Shown here one piece after another: positions 91 to 10,125 of a DNA stretch of 32,199 nt (positions are counted from its first letter, which is position 1; the number at the start of each line of letters is the position of its first letter). The notes below the pieces were generated by a model. That model made no database searches. It was not told the DNA's origin and was given only the letters and a program-made list of their open reading frames with translations. This DNA comes from a virus: IMG/VR virus record IMGVR_UViG_3300022602_000283, positions 1 through 32,199 of that record, one strand, 5' to 3'. The position numbers were made by a program, and so were the translations under genes.

Positions 91-985
91 TCATTGGGGC
101 AGCTTAATGTCCGGTAGGCGGTTCGCCGTTTACAAAGAATAAGTCTAGTGATAGACCCAAAGGAGGTAAGCCTACGCAACTCCGCTGGCAACAGTTCAAT
201 TAAGCAAGCCTGCTCACTCTGGCGACAGAGCGTTCACTGATAAGACCGGTGGATGTAACAGCAAAGCTGATGTAGTGGAAAGAACGTTTGTTTAAACGCC
301 AGAGATTGTATCAAAGGGAACGTTAGCAGATGGAAAGTAACAGGTGGTGCTGACTTCACTACAAAACCAATCAGTTAGTTGGTATGAGAAAGGGTAGCGT
401 ATCGGTTCAAGGTTTTGCAGCCAAGAGCTTGTATGCAGTTTGAGTGGTTGGTGGGCTACAGTAATGTAGCACATTGGTCGCAAAAGACGACTGAGTAGTC
501 CGCAAGACAAAAGGTACGTGGTGTGTTGTATTGTGTATTCCAAAAGAGTATGCAGCAACTGAGTCAGCACATCGCAGTAGGTTGTTATAGCACAACGGTA
601 GTGCAACTCCCTGTTAAGGAGTCGGCTGTGGGTTCAAATCCTACTAACGATTAAAAAAGCAAAGACTGACTCGGTCGTATGTGAAAAGCATCTAATACTT
701 GAGCCGCAAGGTAATCAAGTCAGACGTAACTCGCAAGGTGAAATCTGTTTATGCTGGAAGTTTCGTAAGGTGTTAGCGCACTTGAATGGCTCGCAAGGTC
801 AACGGGATAGATGGCGTAGAATAGCATACGATGACAAGACTACTGCCTGTCTTTAAAAACGGCGATGCTGGTAGCAGACTGTGATACTCGCAAGAGGTTG
901 CAGTGGAAATCGAGAGAAAGCAGACTCGCAAGGTCGGTAATAATGCTCGAGGTGTTACTAGGTTAGGATGTATTCTCAGTCCGCC
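91..985 (+). ncRNA. Candidate large structured non-coding RNA with many GNRA hairpins (GOLLD/ROOL-like)
   Basis: This 0.9-kb stretch has no credible coding frame on + but is rich in short stems closed by GNRA tetraloops. I can read gtcta-GTGA-tagac (143-156), ctg-GCAA-cag (184-193), ctctg-GCGA-cagag (217-230), gctaca-GTAA-tgtagc (455-470), acttga..cc-GCAA-gg..tcaagt (697-720) and ctc-GCAA-gag (about 888-897). Degenerate copies of CTCGCAAGGT lie near 728, 790 and 924. A consensus sigma70 promoter precedes it and tRNA-Asn sits in its middle. Very large phage RNAs such as GOLLD and ROOL are known to lie beside tRNAs and to be rich in such loops, and GOLLD was partly defined from freshwater metagenomes. 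Membership of either class is inference, and the 3' end is not defined. It could instead be several RNAs or a decayed tRNA array. Confidence 0.5.
581..652 (+). tRNA. tRNA-Asn (GTT)
   Basis: A full cloverleaf can be folded. The acceptor is gttgtta/taacgat with two G-U pairs, the D stem gcac/gtgc, and the anticodon stem actcc/ggagt around loop ctgttaa (anticodon GTT). The T stem is gtggg/cctac around ttcaaat. No CCA is encoded. The discriminator would be T, where Asn tRNAs usually have G. It lies inside the large structured RNA region. Confidence 0.85.
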
Positions 986-2348: not shown

Positions 2349-2852
2349 ATGCCGTGGATTCAAAATGTAGCAAGAAGTGATATTAGTCAGGGGTTTCATA
2401 TCGACCCAGGTCCTAATGCTATGCTGATACAGATTGTGGATCCTCCTGGTGACTTTCCCACTCCCAAATATACATTTAAAGAAGTTCACCAGTTTGAGTT
2501 TCTTGATGTAGAGGAACGAGATCCAGTAGACGATGAGGCTATGCGTTGTAGCCCAGAGCAGGCAGCAGAGTTGGCTCGTTTGTTACAACACGCATTAGAC
2601 AACCGTATGAATGTGATTGTTCATTGCCATGCTGGAGTGTGTCGCAGTGGTGCAGTGTGTGAAGTTGGTGTTATAATGGGGTTTGACGACACAGAAGCAT
2701 TCCGTGCTCCTAACTTGTTAGTCAAGCACAGAATGATGCGGGCATTGGGCCTGTACTATGATGAAAACGAAGAGCCAACTATCAATGGCAAGCCCTATCA
2801 ATACAGCGCTGGAGGCATCATTTTGCCCCCAGACCACGAAGGCGATCTTTAG
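2349..2852 (+). CDS. Protein tyrosine/dual-specificity phosphatase-like protein
   Basis: The 167-residue product carries the cysteine-phosphatase signature HCHAGVCRS (residues about 92-100), a CX5R loop with nucleophile Cys93 and phosphate-binding Arg99. The family hydrolyses phospho-Tyr/Ser/Thr or other phosphoesters through a phosphocysteine intermediate. Here the fold is small and closest to phage and bacterial DSP-like proteins; the true substrate cannot be read from sequence. The start at 2349 is preferred because GGAGA lies 5 nt upstream; ATG 2337 is closer to the predicted transcript start and has no such site. It is the first gene of a unit that continues into kinase, phosphoesterase and, further on, RNA ligase genes, so a role in end healing or signalling during infection is possible. 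Confidence 0.85.
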   Translation: MPWIQNVARSDISQGFHIDPGPNAMLIQIVDPPGDFPTPKYTFKEVHQFEFLDVEERDPVDDEAMRCSPEQAAELARLLQHALDNRMNVIVHCHAGVCRSGAVCEVGVIMGFDDTEAFRAPNLLVKHRMMRALGLYYDENEEPTINGKPYQYSAGGIILPPDHEGDL

Positions 2853-2897
2853 CAAAGTTCGCTTATTAAGAATGAGACATTTCAAGAAAGGTAAACA

Positions 2898-3368
2898 ATG
2901 AAGCGCAAGAACTATTTGTATATGTTGATTGGTGTGCCTGCTAGTGGCAAGAGCACTTGGATCAACACCCAAGACTGGACCCGAGATATTCCTGTTGTGT
3001 CTAGTGACCGTTTCATTGACGAACACGCACAAAAGCAAGGCAAGACCTATAACGAGGTCTTTGAGGAATACATCAAGGTTGCAACCAAGTTGATGGAAAA
3101 CCAAGTGTTGATCTGTCAAGCAAATAACAAGGATGTAATCTGGGATCAAACTAACTTGACAGCGAAAAGTCGTGCAGCCAAGTTAGCCATGTTGCCAGAC
3201 TACTACAAGATTGCAGTGGTGTTTAAGACTCCAGATGCAGACGAACACAAGCGTAGGTTAGACGGTCGCCCAGGCAAATCTATCCCAGAAGGGGTATTGA
3301 AGTCGATGGCAGCTAACTTACAATTACCAACAGAAGCGGAAGGATTCAAAGAAATCTGGTACGCATAA
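2898..3368 (+). CDS. Polynucleotide kinase-like P-loop kinase (T4 Pnk kinase domain)
   Basis: The product is 156 residues. Walker A GVPASGKST is at residues 12-20, a SSDRF segment at about 35-39, and DQTNLTAKSR at about 83-92. The last is characteristic of the AAA_33/T4 Pnk 5'-kinase family, in which an Arg and Asp of these motifs handle the acceptor 5'-OH. T4 Pnk is about 300 residues because it adds a C-terminal HAD 3'-phosphatase, which is absent here. A separate phosphoesterase gene follows 10 nt downstream, and an RNA ligase lies three genes on. The predicted reaction is ATP-dependent 5' phosphorylation of RNA or DNA ends in tRNA or mRNA repair. Ribosome-binding site AAAGG lies ahead of ATG 2898. 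Confidence 0.85.
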   Translation: MKRKNYLYMLIGVPASGKSTWINTQDWTRDIPVVSSDRFIDEHAQKQGKTYNEVFEEYIKVATKLMENQVLICQANNKDVIWDQTNLTAKSRAAKLAMLPDYYKIAVVFKTPDADEHKRRLDGRPGKSIPEGVLKSMAANLQLPTEAEGFKEIWYA

Positions 3369-3378
3369 GGAAAGAATA

Positions 3379-3921
3379 ATGACAAAGTGGATTACAAGTG
3401 ACTTGCATTTCGGACACGCAAACATAATGAAGTTTTGCCCTGTAACACGGGTAGGCTTCGCCGATGTGGCAGATATGCGAGAAAAGATGATTGCAGAGTG
3501 GAACGCAAGTGTGCAGCCAGATGATGAAACATTCATCTTGGGTGACTTTGCCTTCTTGCCAGCAAAAGATGCAGTACAAATCTTGCGCCGTTTGAATGGT
3601 GCAAAGATATTGATTGAAGGCAATCACGACCGCAAGTTGTTGAACGACCCTGCATTCCGTGCAGAGTTCAAGGAAGTGCATCAGTATTTGCGCTACAATC
3701 ACGATGGACAAGTTGTGATTATGTTGCACTATCCTATCTGGGAGTGGGACCAAATGCATCGTGGTGCAGTTCACTTCTACGGTCACGTACACGGCAACAA
3801 GACTGGCTTGGAACGGTATCGTGCTCGTGACGTTGCTTTTGACGCTACTGGGCGTGTGGTCAGTCGCTTGGATGAAATGATCAGGGATGCGTTGAAGGGT
3901 GAAATCCGGGCACATCACTAG
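3379..3921 (+). CDS. Calcineurin-like metallophosphoesterase
   Basis: The 180-residue product has all five family motifs in order: DLHFGH (8-13), GDF (55-57), GNHD (81-84), His117 and GHVHG (135-139). These coordinate a binuclear metal centre that hydrolyses phosphomono- or diesters. This size and motif set are typical of stand-alone phage and bacterial enzymes. The position next to a kinase that lacks its own 3'-phosphatase suggests, as inference, that it supplies 2',3'-cyclic phosphodiesterase or 3'-phosphatase activity. Bacterial Pnkp combines kinase, calcineurin-type phosphatase and ligase in one chain, and the order kinase, phosphatase, ligase is preserved here as separate genes. It is probably co-transcribed with the kinase (10-nt gap) and is followed by a hairpin at 3941. 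Confidence 0.9.
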   Translation: MTKWITSDLHFGHANIMKFCPVTRVGFADVADMREKMIAEWNASVQPDDETFILGDFAFLPAKDAVQILRRLNGAKILIEGNHDRKLLNDPAFRAEFKEVHQYLRYNHDGQVVIMLHYPIWEWDQMHRGAVHFYGHVHGNKTGLERYRARDVAFDATGRVVSRLDEMIRDALKGEIRAHH

Positions 3922-3940
3922 TACTAAAGTATTAGTTGTA

Positions 3941-3964
3941 AAAGGGCAACACTGTTTGCCCTTT
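3941..3964 (+). terminator. Stem-loop, probable terminator overlapping the next promoter
   Basis: aaagggcaa (3941-3949) pairs perfectly with ttgcccttt (3956-3964) around a 6-nt loop. The T-run is short. The 3' arm contains the TTGCCC -35 box of the next promoter, so termination and initiation share sequence. Confidence 0.6.
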
Positions 3965-3984
3965 GCCCATTTTGGTTGTATAAT
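3956..3984 (+). promoter_or_regulatory. sigma70 promoter
   Basis: TTGCCC (3956-3961), a 17-bp spacer ending in ttttggttg, and TATAAT (3979-3984). The same spacer end recurs in the promoters at 17555 and 17774. It drives the HD-hydrolase to small-protein unit from 4006. Confidence 0.85.
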
Positions 3985-4005
3985 ATAGTTAACGAGGAGA
4001 GAAAA

Positions 4006-4518
4006 ATGAGCGTTGAATTGATATTAAAAGCACGAACATTTGCTACTGCGGCTCATGCGGCAGTAGCTCAACTTCGCAAGTATACAAACGAACCCTACAT
4101 TGTTCACCCCGCAGAAGTGTTTAGTATCGTCAGCACTGTGCCAGACGCTACTCCTGCAATGTTGGCTGCGGCTTGGTTGCATGATGTTGTGGAAGACACT
4201 GGAGTGACAATTGAAGTCATCAAGCAAGAGTTTGGTGATGAAGTTGCAGATTTGGTCGGTTGGTTGACTGATGTGAGTCGTCCCGAACAGGGCAATCGTG
4301 CGATCCGCAAAGCGATCGACCGCGCTCACACAGCAATGGCTCCGGCTGCCGCTCAAACTGTAAAGTTGGCTGATTTGATCAGCAACACTCGTAGTATCAT
4401 GGAACATGATGCAACTTTTGCCAAGACTTACTTGGCTGAAAAGCGCATGTTGTTGGAAGTGATGACAAAGGGCGACCCCATGTTGATGGCACAGGCTCGT
4501 GAACAAATCGGAGAGTGA
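4006..4518 (+). CDS. HD-domain protein, (p)ppGpp hydrolase-like (Mesh1/SpoT hydrolase domain)
   Basis: The 170-residue product shows PYIVHP (about 30-35), HDVVEDT (59-65) and KLADLISNT (120-128). This is the arrangement seen in the hydrolase domain of RelA/SpoT enzymes and in the stand-alone Mesh1/small alarmone hydrolases, where the His/Asp residues bind Mn2+ and the ED pair is catalytic. No synthetase, TGS or ACT domain is present, so the predicted reaction is removal of the 3'-pyrophosphate from (p)ppGpp. In infection it could blunt the stringent response and keep host transcription and translation active. A strong GGAGA lies ahead of ATG 4006. It is first in its unit, with the next gene starting 1 nt after the stop. 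A related HD phosphohydrolase specificity cannot be excluded. Confidence 0.85.
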   Translation: MSVELILKARTFATAAHAAVAQLRKYTNEPYIVHPAEVFSIVSTVPDATPAMLAAAWLHDVVEDTGVTIEVIKQEFGDEVADLVGWLTDVSRPEQGNRAIRKAIDRAHTAMAPAAAQTVKLADLISNTRSIMEHDATFAKTYLAEKRMLLEVMTKGDPMLMAQAREQIGE

Positions 4519-4519
4519 T

Positions 4520-4786
4520 ATGAACGAACGAATTCGAGAACTTGCCGAACAGGCTAAATTACAACTTGACCAAGATATCAAGGATGGCAAAAAGGACTGG
4601 AAGAATACTCCACAAAGTTATGACGAAATGGTACAAGAAAAGTTCGCCGAGTTGCTTGTGCGAGACTGTTTGAATATTGCTAAAAATTGGAATGATCAAC
4701 TGGTAAGTGCCAAACTTGTTAAAGAATCAAATGCGGTAGGCATTGTGGCATATAGAATCGCACGCCAATTTGGAGTTGAAGAATGA
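4520..4786 (+). CDS. Small conserved-type phage hypothetical protein (88 aa)
   Basis: No function is recognised. The protein is acidic, helical and cytoplasmic in character, with an N-terminal coiled segment (MNERIRELAEQAKL) and a C-terminal MVQEKFAELLVRDCLNI-type helix. No cysteine cluster, signal peptide or nucleotide-binding motif is seen. The start at 4520 is chosen for the ggagag 3-8 nt upstream; an earlier GTG at 4499 would overlap the preceding gene more deeply. It is sandwiched between the HD hydrolase (1 nt gap) and the RNA ligase (4-nt ATGA overlap), so all three are probably translationally coupled. Confidence 0.85.
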   Translation: MNERIRELAEQAKLQLDQDIKDGKKDWKNTPQSYDEMVQEKFAELLVRDCLNIAKNWNDQLVSAKLVKESNAVGIVAYRIARQFGVEE

Positions 4787-6123: not shown

Positions 6124-6148
6124 AAACAATGCGTAAGTGGTGGAATGG
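6124..6148 (+). pseudogene. Truncated duplicate of the tRNA-Leu 5' end
   Basis: These 25 bases are identical to 7995-8019, which cover the 5' flank, acceptor strand and D arm of tRNA-Leu. No anticodon, T arm or 3' acceptor follows. The remainder up to 6289 holds no gene. The two copies form a direct repeat flanking the oxygenase and TctC-like genes. Confidence 0.85.
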
Positions 6149-6289: not shown

Positions 6290-7042
6290 ATGACAAAGAA
6301 AAAACTCTCTGAATTTGATAGTCTTTGGGAATGGACTAAAACAAAGAGTAACTACCACTTTGACGATTTTAGAACAGATGAACCTGGTTTTGGATTCAAA
6401 GTGATTGAAACATTCCCGGTAACTTGGGCGCACCATATTCAAACAATTCGTGATGCCTGTACCCCCAAAACATGGAACAATCTTACACGCACTGGTGGCT
6501 CTCACGGGCACCGTGTGTTGGGTATTGATAAACGCAAGAGCGATATTGCACAAGGGTTGGGTGATATTGATGAGATTGAGTTATCTTCAGTCTACGAAGC
6601 ATTTAATGAAATGCCAGAGTTAAAGGCAATTATTGACAGCTTTCATTTGGAAAAACCACAGGCACGTTGTCACGTACAATGTACTGGGCAGATGTTTACA
6701 TTGCACATAGACCCAATTCAGCGAATGTTCTATGATCATTCACGTGATGGTGCAGTTCACGACCCAGATCCGGATCTTGATGATTACGGATATGATGTTA
6801 AAGACATTATTCGTATCACAGTTATGTTAGAAGACTGGAAACCTGGACAATTCTTAATGTATGGCAACACTCTGTATCAGCAATGGCGTGCTGGTGAAGC
6901 ACACATACACGATTGGATCAATATGCCACACTCGTCAGCAAATGCAAGTCAACACACACGAATTTCATTACAAGTAACTGGGTTACGCACAGCACTAACT
7001 CCATCTGCTTATGATGTTCGTACATTCAAAGCAAATCAATAA
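6290..7042 (+). CDS. 2OG-Fe(II) oxygenase-like protein
   Basis: The 250-residue product has a jelly-roll hydroxylase pattern. HID (139-141) supplies the HxD metal pair, the distal histidine is in NMPHSS (His214), and an Arg ten residues later (Arg224, HTRISLQ) would hold 2-oxoglutarate. The segment between them (RITVMLEDWKPGQFLMYGN) fits the core strands. Such enzymes hydroxylate proteins, nucleic acids or small molecules, and T4-like phages of aquatic bacteria often carry several. The substrate is unknown. Ribosome-binding AGGA is at about 6280. It is followed 10 nt later by the TctC-like gene, probably in one transcript from the 6087 promoter. Confidence 0.75.
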   Translation: MTKKKLSEFDSLWEWTKTKSNYHFDDFRTDEPGFGFKVIETFPVTWAHHIQTIRDACTPKTWNNLTRTGGSHGHRVLGIDKRKSDIAQGLGDIDEIELSSVYEAFNEMPELKAIIDSFHLEKPQARCHVQCTGQMFTLHIDPIQRMFYDHSRDGAVHDPDPDLDDYGYDVKDIIRITVMLEDWKPGQFLMYGNTLYQQWRAGEAHIHDWINMPHSSANASQHTRISLQVTGLRTALTPSAYDVRTFKANQ

Positions 7043-7052
7043 GGAAAAATCA

Positions 7053-7952
7053 ATGTTTAAAAAAATTCTAGCAGCATTTATTATGCTCTTTACTTTATCG
7101 GCTTGGTCAGCAGAACGTATCTCTATTGTATGGGGTTTTGCAGCAGGATCTAATCAGGCAAACTTTTATCGTGCAATGGTCAATGAACTCAACAGTATGC
7201 AAAACAAGTATGAGTTTGTTTTTGAAAATCGACAAGGTGCTGGTGGCGCCGTTGCTGGTCGTTATGTGCTAGCCAACGCAGACCATGCTATCTTTGGCGG
7301 AACCAGTACATTCTTTTTGCGCAGTCAATTTGACACACAAACTGGATATTCTACCAGTGAGTTCAAGCCAGTCTGTGTACAAACTTTGGGAGCCCCGTTG
7401 GTCTTGCTCAGTAGAAAATACACTGACCTAAAGAGCTTCAATAACCGGGGTGGCACAGTATCAGTAAGTGGATTTGGTAGTAGCAGTCATCTAGTCGCTA
7501 GTATCTTACAAGAGCAAGATCCCACTGTTCGCATTGTCAACTATACCACATTGGTAGATGCCAACAAAGATGTTATGGGTCAGCACATTGATGCAGGATG
7601 GAATTTCTATGCTGACGTTGATAAGTTGATTGAAAGTGGAACAGCGCACGGATTGGCTCTGACTGGCAAACATAGTCTAAACGGAGTTCCAACATTTAAA
7701 CAAGTTGGGGTCAACGGATTCGAAGAACTCACATCTAACACTGCTATGTTTGTTAGCGCAAAGATGCCCGAAGACAAAGCCAAAGAGTTGCACGAACTGT
7801 TGCGCAAAGTAAACAATTTGCCAGCTATCCACGAGTTCTATGCACGTGAGTACAGTCATCCAGCTGACTTTGACTATGAACAAACAAAACAGTGGTACAT
7901 CAAGCAAGAAGTATTTTGGACAGTGCAGTCAAGAAAAATAAGACCATTTTGA
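7053..7952 (+). CDS. Tripartite tricarboxylate transporter (Bug/TctC) substrate-binding protein
   Basis: The 299-residue product has an N-terminal signal peptide (KK, hydrophobic core AAFIMLFTL, cleavage near residue 20) and the Bug-family pattern. An early IVWGFAAGS ligand loop is followed by NRQGAGGAVAGRYVLANA, matching the family's GAGG..ga..vAka segment. Bug proteins are periplasmic receptors for carboxylates and related solutes. They feed TctAB permeases and are massively expanded in Betaproteobacteria. The phage copy is slightly shorter than the usual 320 residues and has no permease partner here, so it presumably works with the host transporter or as a decoy or sensor. The start at 7053 is chosen for AAGGA upstream and the signal peptide. 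It is part of the host-like cargo island. Confidence 0.85.
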   Translation: MFKKILAAFIMLFTLSAWSAERISIVWGFAAGSNQANFYRAMVNELNSMQNKYEFVFENRQGAGGAVAGRYVLANADHAIFGGTSTFFLRSQFDTQTGYSTSEFKPVCVQTLGAPLVLLSRKYTDLKSFNNRGGTVSVSGFGSSSHLVASILQEQDPTVRIVNYTTLVDANKDVMGQHIDAGWNFYADVDKLIESGTAHGLALTGKHSLNGVPTFKQVGVNGFEELTSNTAMFVSAKMPEDKAKELHELLRKVNNLPAIHEFYAREYSHPADFDYEQTKQWYIKQEVFWTVQSRKIRPF

Positions 7953-7953
7953 C

Positions 7954-7982
7954 TTGACACACAGACATAAATAAATTACAAT
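7954..7982 (+). promoter_or_regulatory. sigma70 promoter for tRNA-Leu
   Basis: TTGACA (7954-7959), a 17-bp spacer and TACAAT (7977-7982). The tRNA starts 20 nt downstream at 8002. The spacer contains CATAAATA (7966-7973), resembling a T4-type late promoter box. Confidence 0.8.
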
Positions 7983-8001
7983 ATCTACTGTAACAAACAA
8001 T

Positions 8002-8085
8002 GCGTAAGTGGTGGAATGGTATACACTCTGGTCTTAGAAGCCAGCGCCGCAAGGATTGAGAGTTCGAGTCTCTCCTTACGCACCA
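8002..8085 (+). tRNA. tRNA-Leu (TAG)
   Basis: This is a type II tRNA. The acceptor is gcgtaag/cttacgc, anticodon loop cttagaa (anticodon TAG) sits on ctggt/gccag, and the extended variable arm is built on cc-GCAA-gg. The T loop is ttcgagt. Discriminator A and CCA are encoded. Its 5' end is duplicated at 6124. Confidence 0.9.
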
Positions 8086-8108: not shown

Positions 8109-8197
8109 ATGACAAGAAAGTCTTGGACACGCAGACTTTAAAGAGAGGTGGGAGCAGGTGGAAACCTTGCATTCTTCAACAACAAACTAGGTATTAT

Positions 8198-8425
8198 ATG
8201 AGCAGCAGTTACAGTCGTGGTCCAACTCTGGATTTGGAAAAATGTGTGGCAAACATGGACAATAATCGTTTTATGTTGATTGTGGTAGCAAGCGCACGAG
8301 TTCGTGAAATTGCAAGCAAGAACAAACACAGTACCAGATTTGAACATCGTAACCCAGTGATTACGACACTCAAAGAAGTTGAAGAAGGTAAACTTGATAT
8401 TACAGGCATTAAGAATATCAAATAA
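8198..8425 (+). CDS. rpoZ: RNA polymerase omega subunit-like protein
   Basis: The 75-residue product aligns by eye with bacterial omega. An N-terminal LDLEKCVANMDNNRF segment matches the family's ..vedcl..i.NRF, followed by a helix LIVVASARVREIA matching l.laAs.RArqia. The C-terminal PVITTLKEVEEGKLDI matches kptvvALrEIaaGkv. Length and domain order are as in cellular omega, which chaperones the beta' subunit and affects sigma use and ppGpp response. A phage copy could replace host omega and alter promoter choice. The start at 8198 is chosen because the conserved region begins soon after; the ribosome-binding site is weak (taggt). It lies between tRNA-Leu and tRNA-Gly, probably on one transcript from 7954. 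Confidence 0.8.
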   Translation: MSSSYSRGPTLDLEKCVANMDNNRFMLIVVASARVREIASKNKHSTRFEHRNPVITTLKEVEEGKLDITGIKNIK

Positions 8426-8432
8426 GAATACT

Positions 8433-8506
8433 GCGGGATTGGCATATTGGTTGTGTCCCAGCCTTCCAAGCTGGTTAAAGGAGTTCGATTCTCCTATCCC
8501 GCTCCA
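8433..8506 (+). tRNA. tRNA-Gly (TCC)
   Basis: The acceptor is gcgggat/atcccgc. Anticodon loop cttccaa (anticodon TCC) sits on ccagc/gctgg, and the T stem is aggag/ctcct around ttcgatt. TCCA is encoded, and U73 is the normal Gly discriminator. It starts 8 nt after the omega gene and ends 6 nt before the deaminase start. Confidence 0.9.
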
Positions 8507-8511
8507 TTACA

Positions 8512-9027
8512 ATGAAACCTAAATTTCAACAACTATACATGGACTGGGCACTGCGTGTCGCAGAATTAAGTTATGCAAAAAGACTGCAAGTTGGAGCAGT
8601 TATTGTCAAAGACGATACGGTTATTAGTTACGGCTACAACGGTATGCCTGCAGGGTGGGACAACAACTGCGAGACCAAAGAGTGGTGGAATCCAGAACTC
8701 GAAGACCTTCACCCAGACGAAATAAACTCATTATATCCATTCTATGGTGAACACGAAGTCGGAGACTATATTGCCAACGGCAGATACAGACTTGTCACTA
8801 AGTCAGAAGTCCTACACGCTGAATCAAATGCTATTGCAAAATTGGCGAAGTCTAGCAACAGTGGTCTTGGTGCTGAGTTATTTGTTACTCACAGTCCCTG
8901 CATCCAATGTGCAAAACTTATCTATCAGTCAGGTATTGCTCGTGTATATTATGGTGCAAACTATCGTGATGATGCTGGAGTAAAGTTCTTAAAACAAAGT
9001 GGCATCACAGTCACGCAATTAGTATAA
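8512..9027 (+). CDS. Deoxycytidylate (dCMP) deaminase
   Basis: The 171-residue product has the zinc signature of cytidine/dCMP deaminases: HAES (102-105) with the catalytic Glu, and PCIQC (129-133). QVGAVIVKDDTVISYGYNG at the N-terminus is typical of the dCMP branch. It converts dCMP to dUMP for thymidylate synthesis, as T4 Cd does. Length and motifs match phage homologues; the 50-90 segment is the usual phage-type insertion with an extra Cys and His. The start is immediately after tRNA-Gly with no clear Shine-Dalgarno, so its translation may depend on tRNA processing. A weak hairpin (aacct-aat-aggtt, 9038-9050) follows the gene. Confidence 0.9.
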   Translation: MKPKFQQLYMDWALRVAELSYAKRLQVGAVIVKDDTVISYGYNGMPAGWDNNCETKEWWNPELEDLHPDEINSLYPFYGEHEVGDYIANGRYRLVTKSEVLHAESNAIAKLAKSSNSGLGAELFVTHSPCIQCAKLIYQSGIARVYYGANYRDDAGVKFLKQSGITVTQLV

Positions 9028-9111: not shown

Positions 9112-10125
9112 ATGAAAAAATTCGCACTTTTATTCGCTTTGTTTGCTGCGATGGGCGTAGCACAAGCGGACGTTAGCGTATTTGGTACAATGGATGCTGG
9201 TTATTCTAGCTCTAAAGCACCAGGTGCAGCAGCATCAACTACTAGCTTTACCAGTGGCGGTATGACAACCAGCTACATTGGTTTCAAAGGCGCAGAAGAT
9301 TTGGGCAATGGCTCTAAAGCTGTGTTCGAATTGTCTAGCTTCTTGAATGACGGCAATGGTGCTGTTCAAGGTGGTACAACAGTCAACACATTTGCACGTA
9401 GCGCATACGCTGGCTTGCAAGGAAATTTTGGTGAAGTAACAATGGGTCGTCAAACAAACCCAAGTTTCTTGCCAGTTATCTTGTTTAACGCTTATGGCGA
9501 TAGTGGTGCTTATAGCCCATTGTGGCACGCCACTTACTTCGGTAACACAGGCAATGCAACAACACAGTTGTTCAATGACACAGCTTGGGACAACAGTGTA
9601 AAATACACAACACCAAGCATTGGTGGTGCAACAGTTAGCTTGCAAAACTCTAAAGGCACAGGTGCACAAAACTTTGGTGGTAATGCAATGTACTTCAAAG
9701 ATGACTTGGCATTGACAGCATTCTGGCAAAAGACAGGTTACAATAGCTCTGGTAGTTTCCAAACTGATATCTACACAGCCAACCCAGGTACACGTTCTAC
9801 AGAGCGTGGTCTAGGTGCTAGTTACGATTTGCACTTGGCTAAATTGTTTGCTACCTACACAGAAGGTAAAGACAAAGCATTGAACATGGATGGCAAGACA
9901 ACTCAAGTGTCTGCATTGGTTCCAGTTGGTCCAGGCAACGTAATGGCAGAAGCAGCACATACACGTTATGATGCTGGCACTATCACTACATACGACGAGT
10001 ATGCAGTTGGCTATGACTACAACTTGAGCAAGAAAACAGACGTTTACGCTACAGTTGGTCGCACTTATGTTACTGCTATGACAGCAGGTCAAACATTGGG
10101 CGCTGGTCTACGTATCCGCTTCTAA
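9112..10125 (+). CDS. Outer-membrane porin, Gram-negative Porin_4 type
   Basis: The 337-residue product has a clean signal peptide ending AQA (cleavage about residue 19). The mature start DVSVFGTMDAGYSS has the form of betaproteobacterial trimeric porins (..ssVtlyGvvDag..). Alternating beta-strand sequence runs throughout, with YIGFKGAEDLGNGSKAVFELSS and a GEVTMGRQ strand, and it ends with an aromatic Phe (GLRIRF), the BamA recognition signal. It should form a general-diffusion channel in the host outer membrane. It has its own promoter and terminator, so it is a self-contained transferred unit. The T- and A-ending codons look like those of neighbouring phage genes, which argues for long residence. 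Possible roles are nutrient entry during infection or masking and replacement of the host receptor porin. Confidence 0.9.
   Translation: MKKFALLFALFAAMGVAQADVSVFGTMDAGYSSSKAPGAAASTTSFTSGGMTTSYIGFKGAEDLGNGSKAVFELSSFLNDGNGAVQGGTTVNTFARSAYAGLQGNFGEVTMGRQTNPSFLPVILFNAYGDSGAYSPLWHATYFGNTGNATTQLFNDTAWDNSVKYTTPSIGGATVSLQNSKGTGAQNFGGNAMYFKDDLALTAFWQKTGYNSSGSFQTDIYTANPGTRSTERGLGASYDLHLAKLFATYTEGKDKALNMDGKTTQVSALVPVGPGNVMAEAAHTRYDAGTITTYDEYAVGYDYNLSKKTDVYATVGRTYVTAMTAGQTLGAGLRIRF

Follow-up and report, generated by a model that had tools for sequence, protein, structure and literature searches.

Whether a phage can carry its own copy of the omega subunit of RNA polymerase, and what use it would make of one, is the question raised by a short open reading frame in IMGVR_UViG_3300022602_000283, a 32-kb virus record of which positions 1–32,199, referred to here as the window, were analyzed. 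The frame lies on the forward strand (8198..8425, with ATG at 8198 and the stop codon at 8423–8425) and encodes 75 amino acids, for which an omega (rpoZ-like) identity had been proposed in a first-pass annotation. As that annotation had anticipated, the protein matched Pfam PF01192 (RNA_pol_Rpb6) above the curated cut-off, over residues 22–68 (E 2.8e-8, 34.1 bits compared with 26). Omega models of NCBIfam matched at E 1e-4 to 7e-3, all under their own cut-offs, with 19.1 bits for TIGR00690 (equivalog cut-off 23.6) and 22.1 bits for NF001579 (equivalog cut-off 58), scores that place the protein as homologous to, yet outside, the curated cellular equivalogs. There was no match to the frame among the PHROG families. 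In a single-sequence search of solved chains, omega chains came first (best 7f0r_E, E 1.1e-5), and a profile of 44 sequences, 43 from viral records and one bacterial, reached RNA polymerase omega chains among solved structures at E 3.5e-21; a failure of profile searching to find omega, which had been named beforehand as telling against the identity, was not what we observed. The segments NRF, RVRE (as AR-x-RE), TLKE and LkEveeG are all present in the frame, among them the three listed originally (NRF, ArRvReiA and LkEveeG), and NRF, R-x-R and A-L-x-E are conserved in bacterial and viral omegas alike. The accompanying statement that cellular omega length is kept was correct for one length type, in that the protein belongs with the short form found in the nearest bacterial omegas (66–68 aa) but is shorter than the E. 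coli type of about 90 aa. A possible earlier start, a TTG at 8123, was not adopted, since relatives begin near the ATG used.

Modeling gave a consistent picture. An AlphaFold2 model built with the 44-sequence alignment had a mean pLDDT of 81; a single-sequence model, with pLDDT 62, was discarded. The top 24 rows from Foldseek were all omega chains of RNA polymerase entries or of an RpoZ complex, with probability up to 1.0 and with none of the omega-chain rows at E 0.001 or better, E-values being weak for so short a protein. All 50 rows from a second structural alignment (VIA) came from RNA polymerase structures, the best being a Francisella omega (2.0 A over 65 residues) at a Z of 8.5, a value not decisive on its own for a small helical protein. 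Sequence profile and modeled fold agree that the protein has the omega fold and, taken with the phylogeny and conservation described below, they bear out the proposed identity: the frame is a genuine homologue of the RpoZ/Rpb6 family.

An omega gene in a virus record could be explained trivially if the contig were bacterial DNA wrongly classed as viral, and the only omegas in the phage GenBank collection do sit in bacterial sequence filed there, for which reason they were rejected as viral. Records such as CAKLQH020000003.1, MG065691.1, MG065686.1 and others, deposited as phage, encode an rpoZ resembling that of hosts, which in one of them adjoins gmk and spoT; these records appear to be wholly or partly bacterial. 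This would not account for the content of the window, which has a UvsW gene with UvsW_N and helicase domains, a T4-type RNA ligase, a phage DNA polymerase, several other PHROG matches and a GOLLD RNA; its UvsW is nearest to those of the jumbo phages Phosso (53% identity) and Atu_ph07 (49%). Two more contigs (L001 and L002), recovered from other metagenomes and belonging to the same species, encode an omega identical to that of the window, and misassembly or bacterial contamination was rejected on the basis of phage hallmark genes and these three independent contigs. Relatives of 251, 320 and 364 kb that carry omega also have gp23-type (T4-type) capsid genes with E about 1e-97. The phage hallmark genes of the long records with omega rule out a bacterial origin of the contig, to which we attach practically no weight, and together with UvsW and the RNA ligase they uphold the T4-like affiliation suggested at the outset.

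The gene, seen here in a very large phage of freshwater type, is not confined to one species. Omega was present in 14 of 50 related records scanned, 13 of them over the Pfam cut-off, and omega-based scans of IMG/VR raised the total to 57 distinct ORFs on uncultivated phage contigs, many of them from jumbo phages. In an alignment of 13 viral omegas, conservation was nowhere high enough for a stretch to serve in a collection scan, and a scan of genome contigs with a five-sequence viral alignment yielded just four loci, all bacterial. When 56 viral and 32 bacterial sequences were placed in one tree, every viral omega fell on one side of a single branch (90 bootstrap, 99 SH-aLRT), with one viral/bacterial label change compared with 26.5 in shuffles. 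This tree, based on 79 columns and on bacterial omegas from one phylum only, shows the viral omegas as a distinct lineage apart from the sampled proteobacterial omegas and leaves their origin unfixed. Of 74 codons compared between the omegas of the window and of relative L007, 25 differ synonymously and 16 differ in the amino acid encoded (dN 0.15, dS 1.7), i.e. a dN/dS of about 0.09, with roughly 0.03 to 0.24 in other close pairs; across viral pairs overall, dN ranged over 0.006–0.23 and dS over 0.2–2.4. Because independent relatives preserve the frame uninterrupted, and at such a ratio, it is not a chance frame, and the substitution pattern indicates strong purifying selection under which the protein is being kept.

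Gene exchange is frequent in phage tRNA arrays, and it could be proposed that the viral gene is a recently captured host rpoZ riding as a functionless passenger in such a hotspot. Other cellular-type genes of the window, i.e. the porin and TctC-like genes, would fit this, as would the nearest bacterial omegas, with up to 51% identity to one of the viral omegas. A passenger would not be expected to form a clade of its own across many phage records under strong purifying selection, nor to have lost its surroundings: in E. coli, spoT belongs to the same operon as the omega gene (PMC7700224), whereas gmk adjoins none of the viral omega loci and no gmk–rpoZ–spoT neighborhood was found among them. 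Passenger status is already disfavored and we consider it very improbable. The cellular-type envelope genes are positioned on either side of omega, a tripartite-tricarboxylate receptor of TctC type at 7011–7952 and a Gram-negative porin (Porin_4) at 9112–10125. A short omega of 66–68 aa is typical of Betaproteobacteria, and this likeness fits the porin and TctC-like genes, making that group a candidate source of hosts.

In place of the bacterial neighborhood, the viral omega sits in a tRNA array. Reading along one strand, the window has a sigma70-like promoter (TTGACA-17-TACAAT, 7954..7982, 11/12 consensus bases) that ends 19 nt before a tRNA-Leu(TAG) (8002..8085, found by ARAGORN and by the Rfam tRNA model), then omega, then a tRNA-Gly(TCC) that begins 7 nt beyond the end of omega (8433..8506, ARAGORN), and finally a deoxycytidylate-deaminase-like gene as the next gene in the same direction (8512..9027, PF00383, E 2e-23). 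The upstream neighbor of omega is tRNA-Leu in L001, L007, L038 and L041 also, and the latter three have TAGACA-17-TATAAT directly before it and the same order of tRNA-Leu, omega and tRNA-Gly. A co-directional phage tRNA occurs within 1 kb of 50 of the 57 viral omegas, with tRNAs on both sides in 35, and in 23 of the 57 a co-directional tRNA begins no more than 15 nt downstream of the stop codon. Sigma70 sites with at least 11/12 consensus bases were found within 350 nt upstream at 16 of 53 omega loci, compared with 1 of 1060 base-shuffled controls. The first-pass annotation had credited this phage with many sigma70 promoters of 17-bp spacing and had suggested that omega favors them; a near-consensus site with this spacing is indeed present upstream of the tRNA–omega unit, and 16 of 53 relatives have such near-consensus sites, which show host-type promoters but do not indicate such a preference.

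The same scans bear on which polymerase the protein would join. RNA_pol_Rpb1_1 (PF04997) and Rpb2_6 (PF00562) had no match in 16 long relatives, incomplete fragments in which Pfam may miss diverged subunits; seven of the 16 carry omega, and all but one of the seven exceed 140 kb. Sigma70_r2 was not found in 13 long relatives; all or most bacterial controls for these scans were positive. Because phage beta, beta′ and sigma70 were not found and the promoters are of host type, host RNA polymerase is the likely partner. We put a probability of about 0.7 on the reading that a functional phage omega, produced from the tRNA operon, docks on host beta′, replaces host omega and marks the host enzyme in jumbo-phage infection. 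The predicted steps are that the protein would be transcribed through the host sigma70-type promoter, would take the omega site of beta′ in place of the host subunit, and would yield a phage-marked host RNA polymerase while infection proceeds; beta′ binding, displacement and benefit are all predictions here. The likeliest benefit would be either that the host core is kept assembled and sigma70-competent for phage promoters or that a phage transcription factor is given a phage-specific surface to work on, in the way that host omega serves GafA. Omega is known to help recruit the primary sigma in cyanobacteria (PMC3985657), and it is through contact with omega that GafA switches on a gene transfer agent (PMC9638019). 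On the other side, E. coli and cyanobacteria can do without their omega (PMC7700224, PMC3985657), so that any benefit may be modest.

Comparison with bacterial RpoZ of the short form (PF01192) indicates what such a marked polymerase might present. Family, fold, length class and core motifs are shared and the C-termini are related. NRF, R26, R28, A50, L51 and E53 (E. coli numbering) are retained in nearly all viral omegas. Differences are that the viral sequences form their own clade and lie in phage tRNA arrays rather than next to gmk and spoT, that position 29, following R-x-R, is E in 57 of 57 viral omegas and in the bacterial sample only in Wigglesworthia, and that K45, invariant in the sampled bacterial omegas, is lost in 55 of the 57 and kept in 2. 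The viral C-terminus is of the VGREYLKK type with a tyrosine in the YLK motif (Y63), while the short bacterial form ends VGxEMLKKVP. With K45 mostly lost and E29 fixed, the surface of the viral omega has changed, which weighs against the reading that it docks as host omega does. These fixed differences (E29, loss of K45, Y63) could also be those of a decoy or dominant-negative omega, whose unproductive attachment to beta′ would depress host transcription; in E. coli, dominant-lethal forms of omega that bind more tightly are known (PMC7700224). Yet the core omega motifs are kept and not disrupted, and with host-type promoters and no phage RNA polymerase detected, a general poison of transcription would harm the phage itself unless limited in time, so that a decoy seems quite unlikely.

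Another proposal, raised in part by the first-pass annotation, is that the phage omega blunts the host response to ppGpp by taking the place of host omega and so weakening site 1 at the omega–beta′ interface, in concert with a phage HD-type alarmone hydrolase. Residues 2–5 of E. coli omega (A-R-V-T) coordinate ppGpp phosphates at site 1 (PMC7676912). Their equivalents are not kept in the subfamily of 13 sequences to which the window belongs, where SRG or SRS, three residues further out, takes the place of the A-R-(I/V)-T start and D is aligned to T5. The same residues are kept in many other viral omegas: position 3 is R in 33 of the 57 sequences, and position 5 is T or S in 42. Because most viral omegas outside the subfamily keep R3 and T/S5, loss of ppGpp sensing cannot be the general role of the family and was not adopted as such; for the altered ppGpp response originally suggested, the evidence is mixed. 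Moreover, site 2 (DksA) has a larger effect on transcription than site 1 in E. coli (PMC7676912).

The candidate hydrolase is an HD_4 phosphohydrolase gene at 4006..4518 on the forward strand (PF13328, E 1e-15), whose matches among solved structures are (p)ppGpp hydrolase domains of RelA/SpoT type, including MESH1. Its product is possibly a small alarmone hydrolase and possibly a functional companion of omega. HD_4 was found in 10 of 14 omega-bearing records (one match below the Pfam cut-off) compared with 8 of 36 without omega (Fisher p 0.002), which would favor the ppGpp proposal. When records were restricted to those of 80 kb or more the frequencies were 6/7 and 4/7 (p 0.56, not significant); the association was therefore dropped, and record length may explain it. 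A further point against a coupled role is that the stretch 3921–4782 with the HD_4 gene is missing from the same-species contigs L001 and L002, which keep omega, showing that the gene varies within the species. Overall, blunting of the ppGpp response is an unlikely primary function. An HD_4 domain also occurs in L271 (1317–3857, and similarly in G010) within a long phage ORF (about 850 aa) in which GVAEG-type motifs recur and the product of which is possibly virion-associated.

Replacement of the host omega, the reading we prefer, may be compared with known ways in which phages deal with transcription. Jumbo phages like phiKZ encode parts of beta and beta′ and use their own multisubunit RNA polymerase; the present phages resemble them in carrying homologues of cellular core subunits but differ in that omega alone was seen, with no beta or beta′ in the 16 long, incomplete records. 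T4 modifies host RNA polymerase by AsiA, MotA, gp55, gp33 and Alt/Mod, and here again a T4-related phage is predicted to retool the host enzyme rather than bring its own, though by a replacement core subunit and not by added factors or modifications. The case of GafA and omega in RcGTA (PMC9638019) is similar in that a phage-derived element acts on transcription through omega, as predicted here from sequence; there the element supplies the regulator and the host supplies omega, whereas here omega itself is encoded by the phage. In line with the statement made at first, that no well-described T4-like phage is known to use its own omega, a full-text literature search, with subscription papers mostly outside its reach, found no description of a phage-encoded omega, and PF01192 was absent from five cultured jumbo relatives (Phosso, Atu_ph07, PA5oct, XaC1 and Vibrio phage 2.275.O). 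The protein is a new viral version of a known family, and the takeover route is possibly new. That a widespread lineage of jumbo phages takes over host RNA polymerase by such a core-subunit swap, a strategy not known to have been described for phages, possibly coupled to a resetting of alarmone sensitivity, is in our judgment about evenly balanced between true and false. Known means of phage control over host RNA polymerase are added factors, covalent modification and the phage's own enzymes, and replacement of a core subunit would, if true, be a further route. The role of omega in bacteria is itself still debated, and phage copies under strong selection provide a natural test with regard to sigma use, polymerase assembly and ppGpp sensing, in which the fixed virus-specific residues point to where to look.

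Several other features of these arrays were observed. A perfect 25-nt direct repeat at 6124–6148 and 7995–8019 corresponds to the 5′ end of tRNA-Leu plus its leader, and the two copies flank about 1.9 kb that holds an unassigned ORF at 6290–7042 and the TctC-like receptor gene, which suggests an insertion at the tRNA-Leu start. The GOLLD RNA of the window (518–982, RF02032, 203 bits, E 7.8e-56) encloses a tRNA-Asn, and a second GOLLD lies at 828–1290 in the omega-bearing locus L217, so that this large phage RNA and omega share tRNA arrays in both. In L175, close to an omega-like ORF that has diverged strongly, ARAGORN identified a phage tmRNA at 2766–3143 with the tag ANASNDEVFALAA.
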